DNA of 26,739 nt from a virus, in the IMG/VR virus record IMGVR_UViG_3300021960_000425, positions 1 to 26,739 of that record. One strand, given 5' to 3'. The position numbers and the translations under genes are program-made. This document shows, one piece after another, positions 9,346 to 17,056 of this stretch; the first letter of the stretch is position 1, and each line of letters starts with the position of its first letter. The notes beneath the pieces were generated by a model that saw only the letters and a list, made by a program, of their open reading frames with translations, searched no databases and was not told the DNA's origin.

Positions 9346-10002
9346 TCAAGAAAATAAGGAAATTATTTTTTTAGGCAATTTATCGACGAAGTTTGATATA
9401 ATCATATCTTCAGGTAGGTCATCTATTATGTATTTATAGCCATACTTCTTTATGGTATCGGTACTAAAGTCGTCTATTAGTCTATATGTACCTAATTCTA
9501 TTTGATGTGGCTCAAAGACTACTATCTGCCTATGTGGAATATTGAATTGGATCAGGAAACTATTTCTGTGGGTTAGCTTTTTAGCTTTATGTTCTTTGAT
9601 GTGGAAATAAGGCATATCAGCAAATAAGGATTGTACTTCTATCTTTATGGTTTTGTTTCTATAGGTTACTTTGAAGTCAGGTGCTGCAGTTATTTCCCTT
9701 CTCATGACTCTTATTATTCTATCTTGATCATGGTTATCAAAGGTCGCAGTTAGTTCTTTATATGGTGGCAAAGAGAATAGATAAGTAAATACATCCTCTA
9801 CTAACCAACCTCTGCATATATCCATAAAGTGTTGTTCAGGTGTTCTATTGTCTTGGATATGTGCCATTTCTTTATCCAGTTTATTATTAATGGTCTTTAG
9901 TTGCTCTTTATAGGTGTAATACTTGTTATGTAGGTAATGTTGATAATCTGTACTATGAGATAGTTCTTTAAGTTGATTATATGCTGTATCTAACTTATTC
10001 AT
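9346..10002 (-). CDS. PD-(D/E)XK-type nuclease, restriction-endonuclease-like
   Basis: A 218-aa protein. After a helical N-terminal part it has AAPDFKVTYRNKTIKIEVQS (106-125). Here P108-D109, then E122-x-Q124 after one beta hairpin, fits the PD-(D/E)xK fold with K replaced by Q, a known variation in restriction enzymes. Following segments (NSFLIQFN, RQIVVFEP) look like the remaining core strands. It is the last gene of the methylase-HTH-Mom cassette, and its ATG overlaps the Mom stop (TAATG). It could cut unmodified host or rival DNA, or act in recombination. The nuclease fold is likely; the restriction role is inferred from neighbours. Confidence 0.6.
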   Translation of the reverse strand: MNKLDTAYNQLKELSHSTDYQHYLHNKYYTYKEQLKTINNKLDKEMAHIQDNRTPEQHFMDICRGWLVEDVFTYLFSLPPYKELTATFDNHDQDRIIRVMRREITAAPDFKVTYRNKTIKIEVQSLFADMPYFHIKEHKAKKLTHRNSFLIQFNIPHRQIVVFEPHQIELGTYRLIDDFSTDTIKKYGYKYIIDDLPEDMIISNFVDKLPKKIISLFS

Positions 10003-10712
10003 TAGTCAAATAGTTGTGTTTGTGTACTCGGTTTATATGAAGCATCATATCTTTCGTTATTTCCTTTTGGGTAAGGTTTTATGCTATAAACCAATCTTTC
10101 TTTCATTTCTTTTTTCTGTTTTTTATTTCCCAATAAATAGAAATACCTGTGTTTTCTTGCCCTATCAACCATATAAACATTTTTTTCTCCAAATTTTTGT
10201 TTTAATAATTTTACTTTATCAAGGTGTCCATTTTTATCGCTTCTCCCCACCATATCTAAAACAGATGCACCATGAAGATGTTCATATCCTTTTACCATAT
10301 AATCTTTAAATTTTGCACTTAATCCAGTATATAGCCAATTAGTTGCCTGATAGATATATCCATGATGGTTTTGAGATGTGTCAGAATAAGATACTATTAC
10401 TTTAGGTTTTTTTAATAGTTTTAAGGATTGTGAAACAAAAAAAGACAGAACATTTTTATCTAAATTTTCATTAATTACAAGTCTGTTTAATTCTAAAAAA
10501 TTATCTTGATAATGCCCTGAAAATGCTTTTTTAACTAATATGTGTGCAACAGGTCTGCCAAAAGAACAAACACCTACTAATTCTTTGCTTTTAAATAATC
10601 CAAAAGAATAAGACACAGATGTCATTCTTTTTGCATAATGTTTATACATAAACCATTCTTTACATTGTTCTTTTTTAATATGGTTCACTTTATATTTATC
10701 TTTAATACTCAT
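10002..10712 (-). CDS. Mom-like adenine hypermodification protein
   Basis: A 236-aa protein resembling the Mom family, GNAT-fold enzymes that in phage Mu turn adenine into N6-(carbamoylmethyl)adenine and so block many restriction enzymes. Matching pattern: an N-terminal YKHYAKRM segment, GVCSFGRPVA (47-56), FLELNRLVI (72-80), SFFVSQSLKLLKKP (90-103), and the strongly conserved-looking VSYSDTSQNHHGYIYQATNW (107-126) followed by LYTGLS. The C-terminal third is basic (RARKHRY, KKQKKEMKERL) and may bind DNA. Its ATG forms an ATGA overlap with the HTH gene. I identify the family from memory of its motifs, not by search. Confidence 0.7.
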   Translation of the reverse strand: MSIKDKYKVNHIKKEQCKEWFMYKHYAKRMTSVSYSFGLFKSKELVGVCSFGRPVAHILVKKAFSGHYQDNFLELNRLVINENLDKNVLSFFVSQSLKLLKKPKVIVSYSDTSQNHHGYIYQATNWLYTGLSAKFKDYMVKGYEHLHGASVLDMVGRSDKNGHLDKVKLLKQKFGEKNVYMVDRARKHRYFYLLGNKKQKKEMKERLVYSIKPYPKGNNERYDASYKPSTQTQLFD

Positions 10713-11011
10713 TTTCTACGAAGCTTATATTTTACCAAAGTGGCTTCTTTCGATAGCTTTTTTATGGCTCGATTATAATAGGTCTTTGCTGAACTTTCTG
10801 ATATTCTCATGTTATAAGCTATATCATCAAATTTCTTTTTTTCTAATGCTCGTTCAATAAAGCATTGATATTCTTGGTCTGATAATGACCTTCCCCCTTG
10901 TATACCAGTAAGAACATATTTTAGTTCTTTTAATATCTTTGCTTGTTCTTTTTCTACCTCGTCTATTAGGTCTTGGTAGCCTTTTGCTTGATTGTCTATT
11001 GAGTTTTTCAA
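10709..11011 (-). CDS. Small HTH protein, sigma region-4-like
   Basis: A 100-aa protein with a coiled N-terminal half (DLIDEVEKEQAKILKELKYVL) and a C-terminal helix-turn-helix at about 57-90: ALEKKKFDDIAYNMRISESSAKTYYNRAIKKL, with the tempo of sigma-factor region 4 or LuxR-type HTH. The C-terminus is basic. The TTG start at 11011 overlaps the methylase stop (TTTTGA) and has an AAGGA site 8 nt upstream; no ATG lies near the N-terminus. Sitting between methylase and Mom genes, it may regulate the cassette or help late transcription. Mu mom is tightly controlled, so a dedicated regulator would make sense, but this is inference. Confidence 0.65.
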   Translation of the reverse strand: MKNSIDNQAKGYQDLIDEVEKEQAKILKELKYVLTGIQGGRSLSDQEYQCFIERALEKKKFDDIAYNMRISESSAKTYYNRAIKKLSKEATLVKYKLRRK

Positions 11012-12186
11012 AATAGTGTTCCTTGTATTTTAACTCCTTTTAGTCTTGCTTCTGCTATATCACAGTATTCTTGTTCTCTTTCTATACCTATATAATTGAA
11101 TCCTTGTTGCTTACAAGCAATTAATGTTGTTCCTGATCCTGCAAAAGGTTCTAATACTATGCCTTCTTTAGGTGTTACTAATCTTACTAAATATTCCATT
11201 AGTTTGATTGGTTTTACTGTTGGGTGGTAGTTTTTTCTATTTATTACTCTATTTAAACCTATATCATGGCTATGATCTAATGTTGATCTATGTTTTGCTC
11301 TATTGGACATTCCCATAGGTTTTTCCTCATAATCATCTAACCCCATATTTCGTTCTGCTTTACTTGCTTTGGCACAATAAAAGAATCTACTGCTTTCTTC
11401 AAATACTTCTAATACTTCTTCACTTCCATCGTGGATTATGTTTGCAGGGAATCTTCCTTGTGTGTTAATACTTTGTGTTGTATCTATTGGATTTTTTAGC
11501 TCACCACCTACATATTGTGTTTGATGACCACCTCCTGTATTTGCAAATGATTTTCTTTTTTCTATTGCTTTATCTAAATCATCTTCATTTCTATATCCTA
11601 TTCTACACTCATCTATGTTTATTCCACCTGTGCCATGTGTTAAGACATTTTCTGCTACTGATGTGTTAAATGGTTTTCTTGCCATTACAATAGGTTCGTG
11701 TGCAGGTTTTAGTGCAGTTCCCCAACCTTCCCATTGTGAATTGCCTTTGGTATCTTGTAAATCTAATCTATCAGAATTTAACATATAACCATCTTTGCCT
11801 TTTTTATTTTGATAATTTTTTTTAATTCCAATAACTTCCCTTTTATTCCCTTGCAATTTATCTACTGCTTTTCCAATATTATGTGATTTAGGAAAGCCAC
11901 TACCATACAACCACCCTAACATATCTCTTATTTCAAATCCAGCATCTTCTATATTGACTGCCATTCTGTGGTATGTTCTTGAACCTGCAAAAGATAAGAT
12001 ATGCCCACCTGGTTTTAGGACACGATATACTTCTTTCCATAATTCTACTTGGGGAACATCATAATCCCACGACTTTGACATGAATGAAATTCCATAGGGT
12101 GGGTCTGTTACTACACTATCAAAGTAATTATCTTCAAAGTCTTTTAAGACTTCTAAGCTATCTCCACATAATATTTTATTTTTCAT
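11008..12186 (-). CDS. DNA methyltransferase (beta-class amino MTase, N6-A or N4-C)
   Basis: A 392-aa SAM-dependent DNA methyltransferase. Catalytic motif IV DPPYG is at 28-32 and the SAM-binding motif I FAGSGTT at 348-354, so the motif order (IV first, I last) is that of the beta class. Further marks are LKPGGHILSF (motif V-VI region), NYHPTVKPIKLMEYLVRL before motif I, and a long central target-recognition region. The frame extends upstream to an ATG at 12330, but that would add 48 residues unlike any methylase N-terminus. The ATG at 12186 starts right at the motif block (MKNKILCGDSLEVL) and makes an ATGA overlap with a 38-codon frame, so I chose it. It heads the Mom/nuclease cassette. Confidence 0.9.
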   Translation of the reverse strand: MKNKILCGDSLEVLKDFEDNYFDSVVTDPPYGISFMSKSWDYDVPQVELWKEVYRVLKPGGHILSFAGSRTYHRMAVNIEDAGFEIRDMLGWLYGSGFPKSHNIGKAVDKLQGNKREVIGIKKNYQNKKGKDGYMLNSDRLDLQDTKGNSQWEGWGTALKPAHEPIVMARKPFNTSVAENVLTHGTGGINIDECRIGYRNEDDLDKAIEKRKSFANTGGGHQTQYVGGELKNPIDTTQSINTQGRFPANIIHDGSEEVLEVFEESSRFFYCAKASKAERNMGLDDYEEKPMGMSNRAKHRSTLDHSHDIGLNRVINRKNYHPTVKPIKLMEYLVRLVTPKEGIVLEPFAGSGTTLIACKQQGFNYIGIEREQEYCDIAEARLKGVKIQGTLF

Positions 12187-12299
12187 AATTTTTTTGGGAT
12201 ATGTCGCCAGACCAATAAGAATCGAAAGCATATATTTGACCAAGGGTAGACAGGATTGGTTACCTGCGACACTCCTTTTAAATGCCAATACATGTTCAT
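12183..12299 (-). CDS. Possible 38-aa peptide ahead of the methylase
   Basis: An ATG at 12299 opens a 38-codon frame rich in aromatic residues (MNMYWHLKG, NPVYPWSN, FRFLLVWRHIPKKL). It ends in a TGA that overlaps the methylase ATG (ATGA), the linkage used throughout this genome. The ribosome site (GGGAT) is weak. The competing reading is an N-terminal extension of the methylase in another frame, and the same DNA folds into a long hairpin, so the stretch may be mainly RNA. I recognise no family. Confidence 0.35.
   Translation of the reverse strand: MNMYWHLKGVSQVTNPVYPWSNICFRFLLVWRHIPKKL
12202..12271 (-). ncRNA. Candidate structured RNA element upstream of the methylase
   Basis: A 70-nt stretch that is GC-richer (about 45%) than its surroundings and folds in the minus transcript. 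The outer stem is TGTCGC (12271-12266) with GCGACA (12207-12202), followed by ACCAAT (12260-12255) with ATTGGT (12216-12211), and CAG/CTG can pair between them. This gives about 12-14 bp around a 38-nt loop. The loop contains CTTGGT, which can compete for the ACCAA strand, so two folds are possible. It sits just before the methylase start, where it could control expression of the modification cassette. No known riboswitch class is recognised. Both strands fold equally, so the strand is inferred from transcription. Confidence 0.4.
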
Positions 12300-12304
12300 T
12301 ATCT

Positions 12305-12511
12305 TTATCCCAAATCCTTGTTGTAGCCATGTTCTTTGGCTGTTTTTATTATATCTTTTACTGGTATGTATTTATTGTACTTAAAGCAATACAATTCCAT
12401 TGTGTCTTGTAAGTCCGATGAAACTCTCCCTGAAGATTCTACATATTGAATTTCATAGATATCATTTACTTTACAATATATTAATATGGAATTTAGTTCT
12501 TTGGTATCCAT
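12305..12511 (-). CDS. Hypothetical 68-aa protein
   Basis: Unrecognised small protein with an alternating hydrophobic/polar N-terminal half (LNSILIYCKVNDIYEIQYVESSG), an ELYCFKYNKYIPVKDIIKTAKEHGY C-terminal half and two cysteines. Its ATG overlaps the stop of the initiator-domain gene (TAATG), so the pair is co-translated. The compact mixed alpha/beta look suggests a small globular partner, perhaps of the replication protein. No function can be assigned. Confidence 0.6.
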   Translation of the reverse strand: MDTKELNSILIYCKVNDIYEIQYVESSGRVSSDLQDTMELYCFKYNKYIPVKDIIKTAKEHGYNKDLG

Positions 12512-12870
12512 TAGAACTCTCCCTCTAATTCTTCAAAATGATCATGTAACCCTTTATCAAATATTCTTTCTATGATTCGTTTATGGACTGGTGCTGTCAT
12601 TTTTAGCTTTCCATATTGAAATCGTATAAAGCTTTTTAATAGATATTGTGAATCATCAATAGGAATCATTTGTAGCTTTTCTTTAATGATGTCAGGTATT
12701 TCTCCTTCATATCCATTGCATTCAAAGGTCAATCTTTCAGGATCATACTCCCAAAAGCCATCGTGGCTGCAGTTGGATATAATATATAGCCATAATACTT
12801 TTTGTTGTGCCGACAGCTTTCTGAACCATTGCTTACTAAAGATATCAGCATCTAAAAATCTTTTTCTCAT
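12511..12870 (-). CDS. Replication-initiator N-terminal (winged-helix) domain protein
   Basis: A 119-aa protein beginning RKRFLDADIFSKQWFRKLSAQQKVLWLYI, then NCSHDGFWEYDPERLTF and FIRFQYGKLKMTAPVHKRIIE. This is the familiar N-terminal domain of phage replication-initiator/DnaD-like proteins, which recruits host replication proteins to the origin. Family members usually continue with a charged linker and a second domain; this one stops right after the first domain (HDHFEELEGEF). It is coupled to the nuclease gene upstream (ATGA), whose last codons encode its ribosome site. It is either a naturally single-domain version or a truncated initiator; a fossil of a similar linker lies at 16540-16727. 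Confidence 0.65.
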   Translation of the reverse strand: MRKRFLDADIFSKQWFRKLSAQQKVLWLYIISNCSHDGFWEYDPERLTFECNGYEGEIPDIIKEKLQMIPIDDSQYLLKSFIRFQYGKLKMTAPVHKRIIERIFDKGLHDHFEELEGEF

Positions 12871-13511
12871 CTTTTATTCTCCTGTATTTTTAGTAATAAC
12901 TTAAAAACTTTCCAACCCCAGTTCAAGTCTTTAATCTTTAAATGCTCTACTTGATACTCTTTTTTTTCTTTGTCTATTCGTACAATTAAAGCACCTTTGA
13001 TTTTTTCGCCTGTATTTTCTTCATACATTTTTGCATAAGCAGATATTTGTATTTTATGTTCTGAATGTATAGAATTACTACTTTTCCAGTCTAAGATCAT
13101 AAGCTTGGTGTTTTTACCAATCTTTACTTTGGCTACTGCATCACAAGTTCCACCAAACTTATATTTTTCTGAAACCATTTGTAATTCACTATGCAAGATT
13201 TCAGGCTGATAGTCGTTTTTAAAATCCAAATAGTTGTAATATGCTTGTTTAGCTTGACTAATTTCTGTTGGTGAATAGGTATCTAAATTTTGCACTCTAC
13301 CACCAATAGTAAACTGTTCTATCATATTATGTGCTAAAGTCCCTGTTCTACCTGCAGACCTTAATTCTTCTTTTGGATCTACTCCTTGTTTTAGTAATTT
13401 TAAATTCCAATTTAACAATGGATAAAAGTTCCACCCAAGATTGTTGCCTATGATTGTGGTAACCGAACTAACTCTTTTACCTTCCTTTGTTTTATATATT
13501 GTATGTGCCAT
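12867..13511 (-). CDS. RecB/Cas4-family PD-(D/E)XK exonuclease
   Basis: A 214-aa nuclease for phage recombination or replication. Motifs appear in the family order: GTLAHNMIE with H61, ELQMVSEKYKFGGTCD with D124, the catalytic LDWKSS with D141 and K143, then the RecB-type QISAYAKMY (Q155-x3-Y159). It lacks an obvious four-cysteine iron-sulfur set, so it resembles the phage RecB-like exonuclease rather than classical Cas4. It starts with the stereotyped AAAAGGAGAATAAAATG site. Together with the SSB at 15374-16000 it would resect DNA ends for annealing. No annealing protein is visible in the window. Confidence 0.85.
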   Translation of the reverse strand: MAHTIYKTKEGKRVSSVTTIIGNNLGWNFYPLLNWNLKLLKQGVDPKEELRSAGRTGTLAHNMIEQFTIGGRVQNLDTYSPTEISQAKQAYYNYLDFKNDYQPEILHSELQMVSEKYKFGGTCDAVAKVKIGKNTKLMILDWKSSNSIHSEHKIQISAYAKMYEENTGEKIKGALIVRIDKEKKEYQVEHLKIKDLNWGWKVFKLLLKIQENKR

Positions 13512-14770: not shown

Positions 14771-15187
14771 CTAATCTAAATAGTCGTAAAAATCTTCTGA
14801 CTTTTTAAGATTTAAGTTATCTAACATTAATTGTACTTCTTTTCTAAATTCTTTTGATAATAAGTGTTTCTTTTGTCCTGACTTTAATGCAGTATTTCTT
14901 CTTTTCTGTAAAGCATCAAATCTTTCTTGTCCTAATTTATTCAATATAAATTCTCTATGTTCTTGTGGATTACCACCTAAGTATGAATGGCATCCATAGC
15001 ATAATGCCTGACAATTATCTTCATCAAATCTTACACTCCATGATCCTCTACTCCAGAAGTGTGAACAATGTAAAGCAGAAGTAGGTGGTGCATATTTCTT
15101 ATCACATCTTTGACAAGTCCAATTATCTCTTGTTCTAATGTATTTACTCCATATAGAGTCGCTTGGAAATATTTTTAATTTTGGCAT
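14771..15187 (-). CDS. NinG/Rap-like HNH protein
   Basis: A 138-aa protein of the lambda NinG type, a family linked to recombination and Holliday-junction cutting (Rap). It shows RTRDNWTCQRCDKKY (C25, C28), ALHCSHFWSRGSWSVRFDEDN (C41, H43) and CYGCHSYLGGNPQEH (C63, C66, H67), the zinc-bound HNH-like core, followed by a basic helical tail. The frame extends upstream to 15235, but the ATG at 15187 has an AAAGGAAAC site and begins right before the conserved part. Its ribosome site lies within a small hairpin, so translation may be controlled. It neighbours SSB and exonuclease genes, which fits a recombination set. Confidence 0.85.
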   Translation of the reverse strand: MPKLKIFPSDSIWSKYIRTRDNWTCQRCDKKYAPPTSALHCSHFWSRGSWSVRFDEDNCQALCYGCHSYLGGNPQEHREFILNKLGQERFDALQKRRNTALKSGQKKHLLSKEFRKEVQLMLDNLNLKKSEDFYDYLD

Positions 15188-15194
15188 ATTGTTT

Positions 15195-15270
15195 CCTTTC
15201 AGGAGAAAGGGACAGCTACTATTCGATTTGATCATGTTAATTAAACAAAGGAATAAGAAGTAGCTGCCCC
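15195..15270 (-). promoter_or_regulatory. Two overlapping hairpins in the NinG leader
   Basis: In the minus transcript GGGGCAGCTACT (15270-15259) pairs with AGTAGCTGTCCC (15220-15209) over 12 bp including one G-U pair, with a 38-nt loop. Next comes CCTTTC-TCCT-GAAAGG (15210-15195), a perfect 6-bp hairpin that buries the GAAAGGA ribosome site of the NinG gene. The two stems share two bases (15209-15210), so they can compete. This looks like translational control or attenuation. Confidence 0.5.
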
Positions 15271-15275
15271 AGTTT

Positions 15276-15374
15276 CTACACTATAATTAACCCCACAAAC
15301 ATAATTCCAAATAATGCAACTATCAACCAAACAATGACTAATAAGAGCATTATTACTGTATTTTCGTTACTCAT
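15276..15374 (-). CDS. 32-aa single-helix membrane peptide
   Basis: A microprotein whose ATG overlaps the SSB stop (TAATG). After MSNENT it is almost wholly hydrophobic (VIMLLLVIVWLIVALFGIMF and on to GLIIV), a single membrane-spanning helix with the short N-terminus probably outside. Its role is unknown; small phage membrane peptides can block superinfection or disturb the membrane. Coding support is the coupling and the clean hydrophobic pattern. Confidence 0.6.
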   Translation of the reverse strand: MSNENTVIMLLLVIVWLIVALFGIMFVGLIIV

Positions 15375-16000
15375 TAGAATGGTAGGTCGTCATCATTTAT
15401 TTGTACCGACTCTTGAGCAACTGGTTCATTAGGTTTACTTGCTTGTGGTATCGCTTTAGGATTTTCACAAGCTTCTACCCAAGCTTCAACTCGTTTAAAG
15501 TTGTTTACAAACTCGTCAGTAGTCCATACCATATCATTAGCAATATACAATTTAACTACATTGTTAAAAATCATACCCATTCTTGCACCATTGGTGTAAG
15601 TGGTATTCGTAGTTTCTACTGCTTGTTTTACTGCTTTGTCTGCTTGTAGTTTTTGGTCAAACTCATTGATGCTTTTCTTTACATTCTCAAATACTGGATT
15701 AGCAGATTCTTTACTAACTGGTTCTGCTTTCCAATAGTTTCTAAGCTGTCCTTCATCAGTAGTGAATTGTTCCCAACTTAATAAGAAATCACTTCCTTGA
15801 GGTATTGCATCTAACTTTCTTTTTAAAGCATCAGTAGCATCTAAGGTGCTGATTGTGCCATCTTGGATCACTTCGTATTTAAAGGTATTAAACTTCTTAC
15901 CTTGCCATTCTTTTTCTTCGTAGACACCTGCCGAGTTTAAAGTCAATCTCAACTGACCACCTACATTTGCTTTTAGGTCTTTTAAATTTACAAAAGCCAT
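15374..16000 (-). CDS. ssb: Single-stranded DNA-binding protein
   Basis: A 208-aa protein whose last residues NDDDLPF form the acidic tip that SSB proteins use to dock replication and repair partners. The first 110 residues are beta-rich (GGQLRLTLNSAGVYEEKEW, KYEVIQDG, FLLSWEQF, LRNYWKAEP), consistent with an OB fold. A helical part and a flexible proline/glutamine linker (PQASKPNEPVAQESVQ) precede the tip. It protects single-stranded DNA during replication and recombination. The start has an AAGGAGAAATAAT site. The fold is inferred, the tip is seen directly. Confidence 0.82.
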   Translation of the reverse strand: MAFVNLKDLKANVGGQLRLTLNSAGVYEEKEWQGKKFNTFKYEVIQDGTISTLDATDALKRKLDAIPQGSDFLLSWEQFTTDEGQLRNYWKAEPVSKESANPVFENVKKSINEFDQKLQADKAVKQAVETTNTTYTNGARMGMIFNNVVKLYIANDMVWTTDEFVNNFKRVEAWVEACENPKAIPQASKPNEPVAQESVQINDDDLPF

Positions 16001-16316: not shown

Positions 16317-16482
16317 TTTTTTCTCCTTTTTTTGAATCTACTAATTCTTCACAAAGAAAACAATCTTGAACATGAATAGCAGGGGAATCTCCAAACTCTT
16401 GATTGCCACATCTATCACAAATGATTTCAGGTTCATAGATCTGATTGCTGTTTTCTTTTTGTATGTATTTTAAGTAAGTCAA
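16258..16482 (-). CDS. Zinc-ribbon protein, first gene of the early operon
   Basis: A 74-aa protein with CDRCG (C22, C25) and CFLCE (C41, C44), a clear four-cysteine zinc site 19 residues apart. The N-terminus is helical and basic (TYLKYIQKENSN), the C-terminal 25 residues are low-complexity (KKGEKNDSRNNRIHNIHN). It starts with TTG after AAAGGAGAATAAA, and lies directly downstream of a consensus-like sigma70 promoter, so it is probably the first phage protein made from this operon. Early zinc ribbons often act on transcription, but that is inference. Confidence 0.7.
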   Translation of the reverse strand: MTYLKYIQKENSNQIYEPEIICDRCGNQEFGDSPAIHVQDCFLCEELVDSKKGEKNDSRNNRIHNIHNIFLGNV

Positions 16483-16512
16483 TTTATTCTCCTTTATCTA
16501 ACTAACTCTACA

Positions 16513-16541
16513 AGAATATTGATTAATATTGAACTTGTCAA
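16513..16541 (-). promoter_or_regulatory. Early leftward sigma70 promoter
   Basis: TTGACA (16541-16536), a 17-nt spacer and TATTCT (16518-16513) on the minus strand, followed by about 30 nt to the ribosome site of the zinc-ribbon gene at 16482. The -35 is perfect and the spacing ideal, so host RNA polymerase should read the early genes immediately. Confidence 0.85.
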
Positions 16542-16632
16542 TGTTTATTTTCAACCTTCTTTTTCCAATTCTTTTAATTCTTCCTATTCTTTAGCTTTAT
16601 ATTAATCTTTGTCTTTTTCTTTTTCTTGTAGG

Positions 16633-16655
16633 GTAGGGGGTACAGTAGGGGGTAC
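16633..16655 (+). repeat. G-rich direct repeats beside the DnaA boxes
   Basis: GTAGGGGGTAC occurs twice (16633-16643 and 16645-16655), period 12 nt, ending in the palindrome GGGTACCC (16650-16657). They could be iterons for an initiator protein. On the other strand they encode a VPPT-VPPT repeat, so they may instead, or also, be a coding repeat of the fossil initiator. Confidence 0.7.
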
Positions 16656-16660
16656 CCTGT

Positions 16661-16681
16661 TTATCCACAATTTTATCCACA
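16661..16681 (+). other. Putative replication origin: two perfect DnaA boxes
   Basis: TTATCCACA occurs twice in the same orientation (16661-16669 and 16673-16681), 12 nt apart. It matches the strong bacterial DnaA box at all nine positions. G-rich repeats lie on one side and a very AT-rich stretch (CCTTAAAAAAATAATTACG, 16688-16706) on the other, a classic box-plus-melting-region layout, all between two divergent promoters. The phage has an initiator domain protein and SSB but no visible helicase or polymerase, so recruitment of host DnaA/DnaB is likely. Confidence 0.65.
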
Positions 16682-16713
16682 AAACACCCTTAAAAAAATA
16701 ATTACGAATATTA

Positions 16714-16742
16714 TTGACATTGGCCATTTTATTCCATATTCT
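16714..16742 (+). promoter_or_regulatory. Rightward sigma70 promoter
   Basis: TTGACA (16714-16719), 17-nt spacer, TATTCT (16737-16742), the same hexamers and spacing as the leftward promoter. It should drive the single plus-strand gene at 16775. Transcription would start near 16749, about 12 nt before the AAAAGGAGAATAAA ribosome site. Confidence 0.85.
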
Positions 16743-16774
16743 TATATATGTTAGTTAAACAAAAGGAGAATAAA

Positions 16775-17056
16775 ATGAATATTGATTTGAAAAATATTAA
16801 AGTATATGATGAATTAAGTGAAGAAACATTATGTTTTACTGCTACATTATATATTGATGGTGTTAATAGAGGTGAAGTTTCTAATCGTGGTCAAGGTGGT
16901 TGTAATGACTTTGATGATATTAATTGGAAAGAAGAAGAAAAAATTGATACATGGTGTAAAAATAACTTGCCTAAATATGAATGGAATGGATTAAAATGTG
17001 AAACAAGTTTTGAAGTACATTTAGCAGATATTTTATTTTCTAAATTACAATCTTAA
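16775..17056 (+). CDS. Hypothetical 93-aa protein, the only plus-strand gene
   Basis: A small acidic protein. The segment CFTATLYIDGVNRGEVSNRGQGGCND (about 20-45) resembles a short beta hairpin with a glycine-rich turn found in a family of small phage and bacterial hypothetical proteins; the C-terminal part (YEWNGLKCETSFEVHLADILFSKL) is mixed. There are four cysteines and no clear metal site. The frame extends to an ATG at 16748, but the ATG at 16775 follows a perfect AAAAGGAGAATAAA site and lies just after the predicted transcription start. It has its own promoter and terminator, so it is an independent, probably immediate-early unit. Function unknown. Confidence 0.85.
   Translation: MNIDLKNIKVYDELSEETLCFTATLYIDGVNRGEVSNRGQGGCNDFDDINWKEEEKIDTWCKNNLPKYEWNGLKCETSFEVHLADILFSKLQS

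Follow-up and report, generated by a model that had tools for sequence, protein, structure and literature searches.

In bacteriophage lambda, an A-rich tract opens when the O protein binds (PMC5043065, PMC7466680). An earlier note on the DNA described here had invoked the lambdoid arrangement, in which the origin sits inside gene O, and the analogy holds: gene O contains four iterons followed by an A-rich, purine-skewed tract, ACTATTACAAAAGAAAAAAGAAAAGATTATTCG / ACAAAAGAAAAAAGAAAAGATTATTCG, which reads TITKEKRKDYSSE / TKEKRKDYS. Phage SPP1 has one origin, oriL, within gene 38 and another, oriR, in an intergenic position, both with direct repeats and an AT-rich unwinding element (PMC6316719). 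In the iteron plasmids RK2, F, P1 and pSC101, the origins of which also carry DnaA boxes, DnaA cooperates with the Rep protein (PMC5043065). The RepA protein of the PLE satellite has a winged-helix N-terminal domain and acts with a non-coding iteron origin that is distant from the initiator gene (PMC7145576).

The DNA analyzed here (the window) is the IMG/VR record IMGVR_UViG_3300021960_000425, a whole virus record of 26,739 bases. From sequence comparisons we conclude, with a probability of roughly 80%, that positions 16513-16742 are a phage replication origin of the lambda/SPP1 iteron type that is free-standing, non-coding and located between divergent promoters. Two DnaA boxes, two G-rich repeats and a purine-rich tract lie between two diverging promoter-like sites. 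Both sites are sigma-70-like with the arrangement TTGACA-17-TATTCT. The site at 16513-16541 (minus strand) matches the consensus, faces the leftward early operon and is nearly unchanged in close relatives, and the divergent site at 16714-16742 (plus strand) is nearly unchanged in the relatives classified below as type A. A promoter scan recovered both, with about as many sites found in shuffled sequences. The two promoters share a leader, GTTAGTTA...AAAGGAG (16480-16520 and 16740-16775), and near-identical phages have different genes just past it, as though the leader copies marked the edges of cassettes.

Reading from right to left between the promoters, an A+T-rich stretch, AAACACCCTTAAAAAAATAATTACGAATATTA (16682-16713; 80% A+T over 16684-16713), is nearly unchanged in type A relatives and is a candidate alternative opening site. 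Two perfect DnaA boxes with the sequence TTATCCACA follow on the plus strand at 16673-16681 and 16661-16669, 12 bp apart. The iteron core GGGTAGGGGGTACAGTAGGGGGTACCC (16631-16657) comprises two 11-bp G-rich sites, GTAGGGGGTAC (16633-16643 and 16645-16655), again with a period of 12 bp; these are the putative binding sites of the initiator. The purine-rich tract (16551-16628, minus strand, 76% A+T) reads QEKEKDKD, YKAKE and EELKELEKEG with stops in between, and adjoins the iterons as the A+T-rich element of an iteron-type theta origin does; we propose it as an unwinding or single-strand loading element. The order DnaA boxes, iterons, purine-rich tract was constant across about 25 relatives. Relatives were collected with a 208-aa early protein (15374-16000, minus strand) that looks like a single-strand-binding protein by eye and gave no family match. 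GC skew showed no change at the site, although the gene orientation would mask one.

The putative initiator is a 119-aa winged-helix protein encoded at 12511-12870 on the minus strand. In alignments it covers the first ~115 residues of longer initiators; it is a winged-helix-only form that keeps just the N-terminal domain, as had been claimed. The accompanying idea of a decaying remnant does not fit its relatives, since the short form is stable at 117-123 aa throughout its clade, with one member of 166 aa. A profile built from the 119-aa family had more than 520 hits, and 80 viral and 12 bacterial-genome loci were among the matches listed; with the single sequence as query no close relatives were found in bacterial genomes. 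The short forms make up one branch of the initiator tree (support 100/99), and among the matches listed all homologues outside this branch are longer (203-365 aa, one 173 aa). Relatives in which one intact gene spans N-terminal domain, linker and repeats, which the earlier note suggested looking for, proved to be the rule among these distant homologues: nearly all long initiators combine a winged-helix domain, in-frame iterons, a Lys-Asp linker and further C-terminal sequence. Their linker DNA has Lys-Asp codons immediately after repeats of about 11-12 bp, which occur in both orientations. The site thus lies inside the initiator coding sequence in the long-initiator homologues and outside it in the window. 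Among the long C-terminal parts, some have PHROGs matches to families of replication-initiation, primosomal or helicase-loader proteins, and neither of the two sampled types of C-terminal domain is encoded in the window.

The 119-aa protein itself gave no Pfam match above the cut-off and no PHROGs match, did not fall into the lambda O or replication-initiation families, and had no solved relative in the PDB by sequence. An AlphaFold model was confident and winged-helix-like (pLDDT 90.6, pTM 0.82). The best viral fold matches of this model were long phage proteins, several of them named replisome organizer. Matches in the PDB were weak; they included, at Z about 4, the RepA_N-type structures 4pt7, 4pta and 5kbj together with the related 4pql. 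We do not take the lack of a strong match as evidence for a new fold.

The minus-strand peptide described in the earlier note is real. It reads ...KMANVNNIRNYFFKGVLWIKLWINRVPPTVPPTLQEKEKDKD, YKAKE and EELKELEKEG, each ended by a stop, with RVPPTVPPTLQEKEKDKD at 16605-16658. To compare it with initiator linkers we built a nucleotide HMM from 49 long-initiator linkers, all taken from phages outside the window's clade. Its top match in the window was at 16641-16591 on the minus strand, overlapping RVPPTVPPTLQEKEKDKD, with 16.2 bits (E 2e-4), and the runner-up scored 4.9 bits. The maxima reached by shuffled sequences were 7.8 bits (200 dinucleotide-shuffled windows) and 7.5 bits (2000 shuffles of the region). 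Since the score was far above all shuffles, the resemblance is not due to chance, and the proposed likeness to phage initiator linkers was thus borne out. The same HMM matched about 30 short-initiator records, several of which are overlapping pieces of one contig, mostly at a recognizable origin. An exact search for core plus linker gave no match, and matches to a back-translated pattern for VQ(D/E)KDKDKDKYK were confined to the window's clade.

The reading frame is not what is conserved. In L002, L003 and L004, which are near-identical phages, the iteron core lies in the opposite orientation between conserved flanks (approximately L002:4530-4557, L003:803-830 and L004:4088-4115, corresponding to 16631-16657 in the window), so that VPPT is replaced by VGGTVGGTV and a stop precedes EKEKDKD. 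The core can be read in the same frame in both orientations, as VPPT or VGGT. The DnaA boxes and G-rich repeats do have a period of 12 within one open frame, as the earlier note stated, but its use of this multiple of three as evidence for a frame fails, because a spacing of about 11 bp also occurs in in-gene homologues and helical phasing explains it.

What the non-coding copies conserve is not the codon but the hexamer (N)AA(N)(N)(N), and in-frame TAA and TAG stops are freely present. In one register, NNRGNN fits 10 of the window's 13 hexamers, against at most 2 of 12 in the other registers, and none of 5000 shuffles was as strong. Across about 25 relatives the substitutions at hexamer positions 1-6 numbered 19, 2, 2, 15, 17 and 26 (permutation p 0.0005), and third-position changes amounted to 2 in Lys codons and 26 in the alternate codons (sign-flip p 0.004). 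The TAA and TAG codons arise mostly at the variable first position of the hexamer. Counts over the first 13 codons alone (14, 8 and 21 changes at codon positions 1, 2 and 3) were not decisive and are superseded by the period-6 test. Within in-gene linkers the residue alternating with Lys is encoded by GNN in 290 of 360 cases, these residues being Asp (135), Val (69), Glu (52), Ala (29) and Gly (5). Valine would be hard to explain by a charged linker and easy to explain by AARGNN DNA. Because the hexamers ignore stops and the linkers are biased to GNN, the linker composition appears to reflect an origin element in the DNA, as it does in lambda O. We think that the linker-like appearance is maintained by this period-6 DNA pattern regardless of stops and not by residual coding.

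Initiator allele and iteron type agreed in all 18 genomes having both, the window not counted. Four are type A, with the window's allele and iterons, and 14 are type B, with an allele of 61-66% identity and AAGGGT iterons; none is mixed. Because these 18 genomes share ancestry, the weight lies on cases in which the genes between initiator and origin, which are freely mosaic, have been exchanged. The PD-(D/E)XK exonuclease gene adjoining the initiator gene (12867-13511, minus strand) served as a recombination control; like the NinG-like nuclease gene (14771-15235), it is freely mosaic between relatives. In L024 the SSB-like, NinG and small genes are 95-99% window-like, yet initiator and iterons are type B. 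The exonuclease of L028 is 100% identical to that of the window, yet the genome is type B, and those of L003 and L025 are only 56-57% identical, yet both are type A. This covariation despite mosaic genes in between supports a pairing of initiator and iterons. GTAGGGGGTAC also occurs in unrelated contigs (L006-L010, L012, L014-L016, L018), in most cases as a coincidence of coding sequence. At L009:2650-3650, GTACAGTAGGGGGTAC is read in frame (GTVGGTV) within the gene of a different phage protein that looks like an initiator of replication. On the other side of the initiator gene, a Mom-like DNA modification protein (10002-10712) is encoded close to an N6/N4 DNA methylase (11008-12330), possibly for protection from host restriction.

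Perfect TTATCCACA boxes occurred within 150 bp of 27 of the 29 origins of the short-initiator clade; of the two others, one is cut by a contig end and one is a weak match. No perfect box accompanied any of 72 copies in long-initiator genomes (0/54 in-gene, 0/18 outside), a contrast that, belonging to one clade, counts as one event. Since the C-terminal part is absent and DnaA boxes lie beside the iterons in the short clade, recruitment of the helicase probably passed in part from the lost domain to host DnaA. The difference could also reflect host lineage rather than C-terminal loss, since hosts may differ in DnaA box sequence.

About 15 long-initiator genomes, several of them near-identical, have another copy, mostly non-coding, besides the one in the gene, and most free copies in long-initiator genomes sit between genes. 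In five contigs the second iteron and hexamer copy directly precedes the gene for a small predicted membrane protein (L105:1280-1353, L112:624-704, L116:352-439, L123:1220-1299 and L133:521-599); by analogy, these copies are possibly second origins like oriR of SPP1. L113 and L134 encode a long initiator without linker and have the iteron and hexamer copy outside the gene only. The suggestion that the gene had decayed around a stationary origin was not supported, given genomes with both copies and a short initiator that is stable across its clade. Comparison of gene order did not decide whether gene or origin had moved. Since in-gene and free copies coexist, the origin is no less likely to have been copied out of the gene than to have been left behind by decay in place, and the series suggests such copying followed by loss of the in-gene copy.

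The same observations bear on other explanations of the segment. A full-length initiator gene might once have stood here, with an origin that outlived the decay of the coding sequence around it, so that the peptide would be leftover protein. The similarity to in-gene linkers, the junction AGGGT(A/G)CAAGA(T/C)AAAG in the same frame and the nearly open frame in L037, L041, L051 and L082 are in keeping with this. We nevertheless consider it unlikely: no winged-helix or C-terminal remnant was found on either side of the site, substitutions follow period 6 and not codons, and some free copies read otherwise, the hexamers of L089 giving Lys-His and Lys-Tyr. The constant length of the short initiator and the position of most free copies between genes in long-initiator genomes also argue against decay.

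Another account is chance: purine-rich, A+T-rich DNA easily reads as Lys, Glu and Asp and the tract is of low complexity, so that the segment could be unrelated to initiator genes. The conservation of the segment across relatives and the failure of the shuffles, for HMM score and hexamer register alike, to match it make this the least credible account. Somewhat better, though still quite improbable, is that the G-rich repeats are an operator at which the winged-helix protein represses both divergent promoters while replication starts elsewhere. The protein is small, the site lies between these promoters and some plasmid Rep proteins autoregulate via iteron-like sites. An operator leaves the adjacent DnaA boxes, the 78-bp hexamer tract and the likeness to in-gene iteron-linker segments unexplained, but operator and origin roles could coexist.

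Taking the segment as a free-standing iteron origin, the 119-aa protein would bind the G-rich iterons (16631-16657) and host DnaA the two adjoining boxes (16661-16681). Bending and the negative supercoiling from divergent transcription would open the A+T-rich, purine-skewed hexamer tract, where the host helicase would be loaded. Outside the clade the iteron and hexamer segment is in-gene, and its translation is the Lys-[Asp/Glu/Val/Ala] linker between the winged helix and a C-terminal domain, which in some long members is related to helicase-loader or primosomal proteins. In the short clade the C-terminal part would have been lost and DnaA, with boxes beside the iterons, would take part of helicase recruitment. 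More tentatively, and with slightly less than even odds, the hexamer (N)AA(G)(N)(N) may be a dedicated origin element that is read single-stranded by the phage initiator or a helicase partner and dictates, as a by-product, the Lys-[Asp/Glu/Val/Ala] linkers found throughout a large family of phage initiators; outside the gene it would keep its hexamers and ignore codons, and DnaA boxes would permit loss of the C-terminal domain. If so, the Lys-Asp low-complexity linker that is very common in phage replication proteins would be a footprint of origin DNA, and origins could be located from sequence alone in many unannotated phage genomes. The arrangements form a natural series, from an origin in the gene, through copies both in the gene and outside it, to a solely free origin paired with a long initiator and finally a solely free origin accompanied by DnaA boxes and paired with a short initiator. 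Along this series one can test whether host DnaA replaced the phage domain that recruits helicase, and types A and B are a matched allele pair for testing initiator-iteron specificity.

The DnaA-trio consists of 3'-[G/A]AT-5' trinucleotide repeats adjoining a DnaA box. Its role is comparable to that proposed for the hexamer, whereas the tract in the window is a hexamer repeat adjoining iterons. The plasmid origins share with the window the combination of iterons, DnaA boxes and an A+T-rich region, but they have 13-mers where the phage has its hexamer tract, and by sequence the phage initiator is not of the RepA/TrfA double winged-helix type. PLE RepA resembles the window's system in having a winged helix and an iteron origin that is non-coding and lies apart from the initiator gene, and RepA_N-type initiators are among the weak fold matches; PLE RepA has no significant sequence match to the 119-aa protein, and the fold scores are too weak for membership. 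The likeness to SPP1 is one of origin layout: long-initiator genomes with both copies have an in-gene and a free origin of the same build, whereas the window has the free copy only and a winged-helix-only initiator. With lambda the window shares iterons, putatively initiator-specific in the window, placed directly before an A-rich, purine-skewed tract, in the same place and orientation and with transcription nearby. It differs from lambda in having two 11-bp sites instead of four of ~18 bp, two DnaA boxes, an initiator without C-terminal domain, and a non-coding origin about 3.7 kb from the initiator gene.
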